From Prochlorococcus sp. AG-363-J23 (GTDB taxonomy: Bacteria; Cyanobacteriota; Cyanobacteriia; PCC-6307; Cyanobiaceae), in assembly GCA_003280245.1 (NCBI GenBank), contig QCFN01000012.1, positions 1 through 38,851 on the forward strand: a DNA stretch of 38,851 bases, written 5' to 3'. A program made the translations under genes and the position numbers. Position 1 is the first letter of the stretch. Each line of letters starts with the position of its first letter. Below, one piece after another: positions 32,989 to 37,485 of the stretch. The notes beneath the pieces were generated by a model that did not search any database, was not told the origin of the DNA, and saw only the letters and a program-made list of their open reading frames with translations.

Positions 32989-33048
32989 CAAAAACAATTT
33001 TGAATGAGGTCCTATGGGAAACTCAAACCTTCTAAGCAAAACAGTCCC

Positions 33049-34869
33049 ATGCGCAGCAACGGTTGCGGCGATTTGCGCAAAGAACACATCAGCTCCAACG
33101 TTCAGCTATGTGGCTGGGTAGACCGGTGCAGAGATCACGGTGGAGTTATCTTTATTGACCTCAGAGATAGCAGCGGGACAACTCAAATCACTATTGATCC
33201 TGATCAAGGCTCAGAATTATTTCTGAAAGCTGAAAGTCTCAGAAATGAAACTGTTATTCAAATCATCGGAATAGTTAGATCAAGACCTGAGGAATCTATC
33301 AACTCTAAAATCAAAACCGGTGAAATCGAGGTTCTTGCAAGCAACTTAGAAGTACTAAACGAAGTAAACCAAAATTTGCCGTTTAACGTTTCAGTACATC
33401 AAGACGAACCACTTCGAGAGGAAGTTCGCTTAAAACATCGATATCTAGATTTGCGCCGAGCGCGCATGAATAAAAATCTGCGCATACGTCATAAAACAAT
33501 TCAAACAGCTCGTCGTTTTCTTGAAAGTCTAGGTTTTATTGAAATTGAAACCCCTATACTTACTCGCTCCACTCCAGAAGGTGCTAGAGATTATGTAGTC
33601 CCTTCCAGAGTCTGCGGAGGGGAATGGTTTGCCCTACCTCAATCACCGCAACTTTTTAAGCAGCTCCTAATGGTAGGCGGACTTGAAAAGTATTACCAAG
33701 TCGCAAGATGCTTCCGAGATGAAGATCTTCGCGCCGATCGACAGCCTGAATTCACTCAATTGGATGTCGAAATGAGTTTTATGGAACAAGATGAAATTCT
33801 AGAAATCAATGAACGTCTGATCGCTGCTATTTGGCAAGCAATCAAAGGAATTGACTTGCCAAGACCTTTCCCAAGAATGACTTGGAATGAAGCAATGAAC
33901 CGTTATGGAACCGATCGGCCTGATACTCGTTTTGGAATGGAACTTAATGATGTCAGTGACATTGTCAAAGATATTGGATTCAAAGTTTTCTCGGGTGCAG
34001 TAGCTTCAGGCGGAGCTGTTAAGTGCATCACAGTTTCAAACGGAAATGAATGTATTAGTAATGTAAGAATTAAGCCAGGCGGAGATATTTTTAAAGAAGC
34101 TCAAGCAGGTGGAGCTGGTGGACTTGCATTTATTCGAGTTCGAGAATCTGGAGAAATTGACACTATTGGTGCAATAAAGGAAAACTTAAATAAAACCCAA
34201 AAAGAAGCACTTCTGCATAGAACTAAGGCAAAACCAGGTGATCTAATTTTGTTTGGTGCAGGTGCTACAGCAATTGTTAATAAAACCTTAGATCGAATAA
34301 GACAATACCTTGCTAGAGAACTCAAATTAATTCCTAATGATGGCCAAAATTCAAGCTGGAATTTCTTATGGATAGTTGATTTCCCTATGTTCGAATTCAA
34401 TGAAGATGAAGATCGTTTAGAAGCACTTCATCATCCATTCTGCGCACCAAACAAAGAAGATTTAGGGGAAAACCCGAATGATTGGGTGCATCGGCTACCT
34501 AAAGCTAGAGCACAGGCCTATGACCTTGTTGTGAATGGCTTAGAACTAGGAGGAGGATCTTTACGCATCCATGATTCAAAACTCCAGCAAACAGTTCTCG
34601 AAGTAATTGGACTAACTACAAATGCAATCAATCAGCAATTTGGCTTTCTAATAGAAGCCCTAGGAATGGGAGCACCCCCTCATGGTGGAATTGCATTTGG
34701 TCTAGATCGAATGATCATGTTGCTAACTGGTGAAGACTCAATTCGAGAATCAATCGCTTTTCCTAAAACCCAACAAGCCCGATGTTTAATGACCCAAGCT
34801 CCTGCAGGAGTAGCAGCTCATCAACTTAATGAGCTGCATGTTAAAAGCACTTGGACTGATCCTAATTAG
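33049..34869 (+). CDS. aspS: Aspartate-tRNA ligase
   Basis: 606 residues from ATG 33049, where the conserved N-terminus begins ([14 protein letters not shown]); the frame also offers an ATG at 33004, adding 15 residues. The anticodon-binding OB domain is at the N-terminus, and class II motifs follow: motif 2 as [18 protein letters not shown], and [13 protein letters not shown] as motif 3. A GAD insertion domain lies between (about 300-420). It may be discriminating or non-discriminating depending on whether Asn-tRNA synthetase is present elsewhere. Confidence 0.96.
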
Positions 34870-34995
34870 ATTTAGCAAATCAAGTTATTCACCCAATTAA
34901 TCATCAACCCTAAAGAAATAACCTCGCAACCATTCTTTGTCCACAACCGACAAAAGAAAAGGGGACCCTCAAAAAATATCTGGGAGTTCCATTTT

Positions 34996-35621
34996 GTGCG
35001 TCTGTATCTGCAAAACATTGAACGAATAGCGCTTCTTCCAGAAGAAGAGGAAGTTCTATTTTCACGACTAGTTCAAAAGCGGGAGGCTCTTCTTGAAAAG
35101 CAAAGGAAAATCGCTTACGAAAAGCCAAGTATTAAAATACTATTGGAATTGCAAAAGATCCAATTAAAAGAAGCCAATCATTTATGTCATTTACCAACCA
35201 AACAAGAATGGGGCAAGCGCAGCAAATATTTCACAAAAAATCTTCAAAAAAGACCGCATTGCATCTCTAAAAGATCTTGCAAAAGAACTAAATGTTAACG
35301 AACTAGAAATTAGAGATAATCTTGCAAGAGCGTCTAGGAAAATTTCACTGGAAACCAAAAATCTGAACTTTTGGAAGACAAAAGCCCTACTCCTGAAGAA
35401 AACCTAATTAAGCATCTATTAATACAAAGTTTAAATAATTTGCTCAAAGATCTAATCAAAAAAGAAGAATCTGCCTTAAAATTACGCTTTCGTTTAATTG
35501 ATAATATACTAAGACTCCTCAATAAATTGATGAAATAATGAATATTTCGAGAGAAAGCGTTAGAAAAATAGCATTTCAAGCATTATCAAAATTACGGCAA
35601 TCAAAAAAACTTATAAAATAA
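34996..35621 (+). pseudogene. Decayed group-2 sigma-70 factor, region 2 lost
   Basis: Four fragments in shifting frames match a cyanobacterial RpoD-like sigma factor in order. (a) Frame 1 from 34996: VRLYLQNIERIALLPEEEEV then RLVQKREALL, region 1.2, and HLPTKQEWG. (b) Frame 2, about 35220-35361: KDRIASLKDLAKELNVNEL then IRDNLARASRKISLE, region 3. (c) Frame 1, about 35362-35500: ELLEDKSPTPEENL, then LNNLLKDLIKKEESALKLRF, region 4.1. (d) Frame 3, 35526-35621: NISRESVRKIAFQALSKLR, the region 4.2 helix-turn-helix. Region 2 (core binding, -10 recognition) is absent, and there are at least three frame changes and a stop at 35523. It lies between aspS and pyrG and cannot make a working sigma factor. 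Confidence 0.85.
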
Positions 35622-35737
35622 ATGACTATCTTAAATCATTAAAACCTTAAAAAATTTCAAGATCTAGTCAAATCATCACTATAAATACAGAATTAATCGC
35701 TGAGATGAAACCATCGCCGAAAAAAAATTACGCCTAA

Positions 35738-35765
35738 TTGCGAACTTCTACACTTTTTATAAAAT
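35738..35765 (+). promoter_or_regulatory. Candidate pyrG promoter
   Basis: TTGCGA (35738-35743), 16 bases, TAAAAT (35760-35765), ending 52 bases before the pyrG ATG. It lies in the 196-base gap after the sigma pseudogene, where no gene is seen. A bacterial sigma-70 promoter is plausible, but such AT-rich DNA yields many similar matches. Confidence 0.35.
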
Positions 35766-35817
35766 AGTTGAAGTATCTGGCAATTGCGAGGTATTTTAAA
35801 GAGTCACTGAAAGGTAA

Positions 35818-37484
<1,667 letters not shown>

Positions 37485-37485
<1 letters not shown>

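Follow-up and report, generated by a model that had tools for sequence, protein, structure and literature searches.

Remnants of a SigC-type sigma factor gene between aspS and pyrG in a Prochlorococcus genome

What occupies the interval between the genes for aspartyl-tRNA synthetase and CTP synthase in Prochlorococcus sp. AG-363-J23? The window, a 38,851-nucleotide stretch of DNA, corresponds to contig C12 in the assembly of a member of the Prochlorococcus/Synechococcus family; this assembly comprises 1.31 Mb in 55 contigs and is 69% complete. Both flanking genes lie on the forward strand and are intact. The aspS gene (33004-34869) is a 621-residue open reading frame whose product is 60-79% identical to AspS of relatives, in the same gene order, and pyrG (35818-37485) is a 555-residue open reading frame with about 77-88% identity in family relatives. 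The 948-bp interval between them contains no forward-strand open reading frame of more than 100 residues, and its G+C content is 32%, as against 41% for aspS and 40% for pyrG. No RNA gene was found in the interval by Rfam. A phage origin was considered and rejected, as a distant blastn search against 50,697 phage records returned only short matches at the level of chance. A preliminary description had read positions 34996-35621 as a sigma factor gene in decay. The interval very probably contains what remains of a SigC-type group-2 sigma factor gene, a unitary pseudogene whose ancestral place is between aspS and pyrG.

In Prochlorococcus sp. AG-409-N21, the nearest organism by PyrG in the named collection (86% PyrG identity), aspS and pyrG directly flank an intact gene of 376 codons (L003:4737-5867). 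The product of this gene is composed of the Pfam sigma-70 regions 1.2, 2, 3, and 4, with region 2 at residues 140-209. The protein exceeds the NCBIfam cut-off for TIGR02997, the cyanobacterial RpoD/SigA subfamily, and its top model of 52 is NF005785 (SigC, E = 3e-148). Since the marine orthologue scores 494 bits and lies below the SigC equivalog cut-off of 554, the term SigC-type denotes a subfamily placement. The intact marine relatives resemble SigC of Synechocystis PCC 6803 and RpoD5/SigC of PCC 7942 in matching NCBIfam SigC best and in the order of regions 1.2, 2, 3, and 4. In contrast to cyanobacterial SigC, the remnant in the window retains pieces of regions 1.2, 3, and 4 but has neither region 2 nor a single open frame. 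SigC of PCC 6803 is involved in stationary-phase, NtcA-dependent glnB transcription, nitrogen gene expression, and heat acclimation (PMC2758279). These roles may not carry over to the marine orthologue.

The intact AG-409-N21 protein was aligned with the interval by tblastn, and the pieces are numbered in its residues. The remnant consists of five collinear pieces on the forward strand, which lie in frames 1, 2, 1, 3, and 2 and end at the original stop codon. Piece 1 (34957-35244, frame 1) is the N-terminal part and comprises region 1.2 and a non-conserved linker (residues 22-104). Its tblastn match covers 34996-35244 with 49% identity (E = 9e-27), and the SigC profile carries the match back to 34957. 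The open reading frame 34996-35298, which contains most of this piece, likewise has NF005785 as its top match (E = 2e-10) and also matches Pfam region 1.2 (E = 7e-4). At position 35245, a single nucleotide stands in place of 129 codons (residues 105-233, including all of region 2), a net loss of 386 bp by the coordinates of the flanking pieces relative to the intact orthologue. Piece 2 (35246-35359, frame 2) corresponds to region 3 (residues 234-271; 58% identity by tblastn, 25.6 bits by profile). After a net loss of 25 bp, piece 3 (35365-35529, frame 1) forms the start of region 4 (residues 282-336) with 38% identity by tblastn. Its open reading frame, 35371-35538, matches NCBIfam sigma models, SigC and RpoD among them, with E values of 3e-5 to 4e-5. 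Piece 4 (35538-35606, frame 3), which follows a net loss of 1 bp, contains the helix-turn-helix of region 4.2 (residues 340-362; 57% identity by tblastn, Pfam Sigma70_r4 E = 6e-5). Pieces 2, 3, and 4 have a joint tblastn E value of 2e-17. Piece 5 (35615-35650, frame 2) follows a further net loss of 1 bp and is the C-terminus, KINDYLKSLKP (residues 366-376), with its stop codon. Its coding part (35615-35647) shares 6 of 11 residues with KIRDYMQSLDS of the orthologue. The match is weak alone, and the piece is assigned by collinearity and by the position of the TAA directly after it (35648-35650).

The copy is thus disabled by four frame changes and by the deletion of region 2. These lesions are read directly from the alignment; any order in which they arose is a matter of inference. 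No single open frame of the copy runs from region 1.2 to region 4.2, and contig C12 contains no Sigma70_r2 match. The sigma fragments in frames 1, 2, 1, and 3 that had been noticed from the sequence are exactly reproduced by tblastn, and region 2, described as gone, is wholly absent as residues 140-209. The extent of 34996-35621 has to be widened, because the fifth piece in frame 2 and the true end at 35650 had been missed and the profile match starts at 34957. The frames are indeed broken, but the stops said to interrupt the remnant sit only where each frame overruns its piece, and none falls inside a matched piece. Region 2 of sigma-70 proteins recognizes the -10 element and carries the main core-binding parts, and sigma function is impossible without it. 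With this region lost, the copy in the window is dead and no sigma activity can remain.

Similarity arising by chance in AT-rich non-coding DNA might be suspected from the C-terminal piece, which alone gives a weak match (20 bits, E = 0.06). It is refuted by shuffles and synteny. By tblastn the interval scores 90.1 bits, from piece 1 alone, against a best score of 22.7 in 100 dinucleotide shuffles, none of which reaches the score. With the SigC profile, piece 1 obtains 90.2 bits, while the highest of 200 shuffles obtains 7.0. The pieces are moreover collinear, and an intact orthologue stands in the same place. The earlier judgment that this is a gene ruin and not noise therefore stands. A sequencing or assembly error, or a chimera of single-cell amplification, in an otherwise intact gene could be favored by the fragmentary genome, by the ability of amplification to create deletions, and by two single-base lesions near A-runs. 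That errors should produce four independent frame changes within 650 bp, with an intact gene on either side, is nevertheless unlikely, and aspS and pyrG are undamaged. The copy also carries excess amino-acid-changing substitutions throughout, which errors do not cause. Over 210 aligned codons, the fraction of sites at which it differs from intact genes is 0.44-0.53 for first and 0.25-0.32 for second codon positions; for intact pairs of similar AspS divergence, the fractions are mostly about 0.31-0.39 and 0.15-0.21, respectively. Third positions are similar for both kinds of pair and near saturation. The excess at the first and second positions shows a loss of constraint and no sequencing error, and the error reading is very improbable.

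The same substitutions bear on the fate of the individual pieces. Amino acid identities of pieces 1-5 are 0.49, 0.48, 0.38, 0.55, and 0.45 in the window copy, compared with means of 0.59, 0.62, 0.65, 0.74, and 0.61 for intact pairs. The excess of change peaks in region 4, a part that varies little among working copies; across regions 3-4, the window copy has 38-55% identity against intact-gene averages of 62-74%. In piece 1 the acceleration is slight (49% identity, compared with an intact mean of 59% and a range down to 46%), and its open reading frame may therefore have decayed less than the rest. A short product might then be retained, with the open reading frame 34996-35298 (100 residues; region 1.2, linker, and an out-of-frame tail) still being translated and serving, for instance, to bind RNA polymerase or DNA in the absence of region 2. 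The piece contains no interruption, has a GTG start, and shows a smaller acceleration than regions 3-4, and truncated yet conserved KaiA homologues have been reported from some Prochlorococcus (PMC8113500). Against such a product, its last ~17 codons are out of frame relative to the ancestral gene, and piece 1 is still more diverged than the intact-gene mean. Region 1.2 by itself also does not include the principal surface for core binding. When 400 family genomes were searched with the DNA of the interval, neither a truncated form nor a second relic turned up, only short matches that include intact sigC genes. A retained product is very unlikely, and the pseudogene remains the preferred reading.

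The relatives support the ancestral position of the gene. Every intact sigC checked lies between aspS and pyrG, in AG-409-N21 as well as in 37 of 37 further genomes scored for which both flanks were available. The lack of an intact homologue here in every relative, which the preliminary description had set in advance as counting against it, is clearly not what is seen, and its identification of a group-2 sigma factor is borne out as SigC type. Genomes with the intact aspS-sigC-pyrG order include Synechococcus-sized ones and several small, Prochlorococcus-sized ones. SigC is absent from most of the small-genome relatives examined, so this lineage is not alone in having lost it. At 28 loci without sigC, the distance between aspS and pyrG is only about 66-351 bp. 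Clean junctions such as that of Prochlorococcus AG-402-K22 (L004) represent the same locus and the same lost gene as the window, but with no detectable relic in the short gap, in contrast to the 948-bp interval here. The SigC profile, applied to 26 of the 28 loci, and tblastn, applied to a subset, detected no relic beyond the shuffles in these intervals. The window is the sole intermediate seen among the relatives examined. The assembly of the one congener compared (G001) does not contain this locus, and the lesions are thus known from one genome.

Three observations on individual relatives are added. The 286-bp gap of locus L131 (G008) contains a 35-residue stretch with a stop that resembles the SigC N-terminus. 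Its tblastn score of 19.6 bits, equalled by 1 of 100 shuffles, looked suggestive, and the stretch may be an older relic; the profile gives the G008 interval no support, with 29 of 200 shuffles as high. In two other family genomes, SigC-like matches at G264:C1:578247-579335 and G279:C41:285-1061 each have one TAA counted inside the match, and further broken copies or sequencing errors are possible there. In a genome without SigC (G016:C1:163200-165048; L157, L163), the aspS match is split into two pieces whose query ranges overlap, which points to a frameshifted aspS or to misassembly next to the same junction.

The number of losses was assessed on a maximum-likelihood tree of AspS and PyrG from 48 genomes (961 columns). 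Presence and absence of sigC require seven changes on this tree (6-8 across bootstraps), of which at least two are required when only strongly supported branches are counted. The tree is built from two linked genes and has weak support within the low-light radiation, and the number of losses may shift accordingly. Placing all genomes without SigC in one clade is rejected by the AU test (p = 2.9e-5, or p = 0.0045 without the outlier G026), the p-values being indicative only because the tested group was named from the same data. Since a single loss is rejected, SigC has apparently been lost several times separately, with re-acquisition by recombination as an alternative to some of the losses. 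A grouping in which the window joins two nearby genomes without SigC (p = 0.30) or joins G053 (p = 0.24) is not rejected, so that a private and a shared loss both fit the tree. The aspS-pyrG junction of SigC-less Prochlorococcus is accordingly a secondary state, apparently reached several times.

Very probably, the ancestor of marine Synechococcus and Prochlorococcus had a SigC-type gene between aspS and pyrG. Deletions and frameshifts, the loss of the whole of region 2 among them, disabled the copy in the window, and the sequence is now drifting and shrinking toward the clean junction of most small-genome relatives. The loss had been called recent. The term is justified only by comparison with a very long branch, and near-saturated third codon positions give no date. 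The accompanying loss of a regulon is an inference, because at least two other sigma factors remain in the host and may have taken over the SigC promoters. The 1.31-Mb assembly contains only two sigma region-2 matches in its 69% of the genome, and an intact sigC copy may lie in the missing part.

As to cause, genome streamlining, with which the preliminary description had found the loss consistent, is a candidate only. Both selection (PMC3940434) and, for the early phase, drift with deletional bias (PMC10837832) have been argued for genome reduction in Prochlorococcus. A shared ecological change that made the regulon dispensable or costly may tentatively be proposed to have driven repeated, parallel loss of SigC across Prochlorococcus, with the window as the only detectable half-decayed intermediate; this is conceivable but rather less than probable. 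The proposed stepwise loss of kaiA in Prochlorococcus likewise concerns a regulatory gene with a supposed relic in syntenic position. The kaiA pseudogene claimed for MIT9303 and MIT9313 has since been challenged and interpreted as an orphan gene without relation to kaiA (PMC8113500), whereas the SigC relic leaves no statistical ambiguity and its pieces are collinear. That pseudogenes form as genomes shrink is well established, and the present finding is a fresh example of this process: an ordinary pseudogene in a gene-losing lineage, of modest value as a captured intermediate. It catches the loss of one regulatory gene mid-way in a free-living lineage, where lost genes have usually been deleted already. 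No paper on SigC loss at aspS-pyrG was found in the open-access literature, an absence that is weak evidence. The locus raises a testable question, namely which promoters have lost SigC-type recognition in each SigC-less lineage.

Beyond the ruin, a motif like CGAGGTA-n2-TTAAAGAGTCAC is present at 35760-35800 on the forward strand. It recurs directly 5' of pyrG at most Prochlorococcus and marine Synechococcus loci, with or without SigC, and pyrG therefore seems unaffected by the decay of the neighboring sigma gene. Judged by eye, the element is probably pyrG's own promoter and leader. In relatives without SigC, the element corresponding to the region 35760-35817 often has TTTTCTTGGCC ~25 bp upstream.
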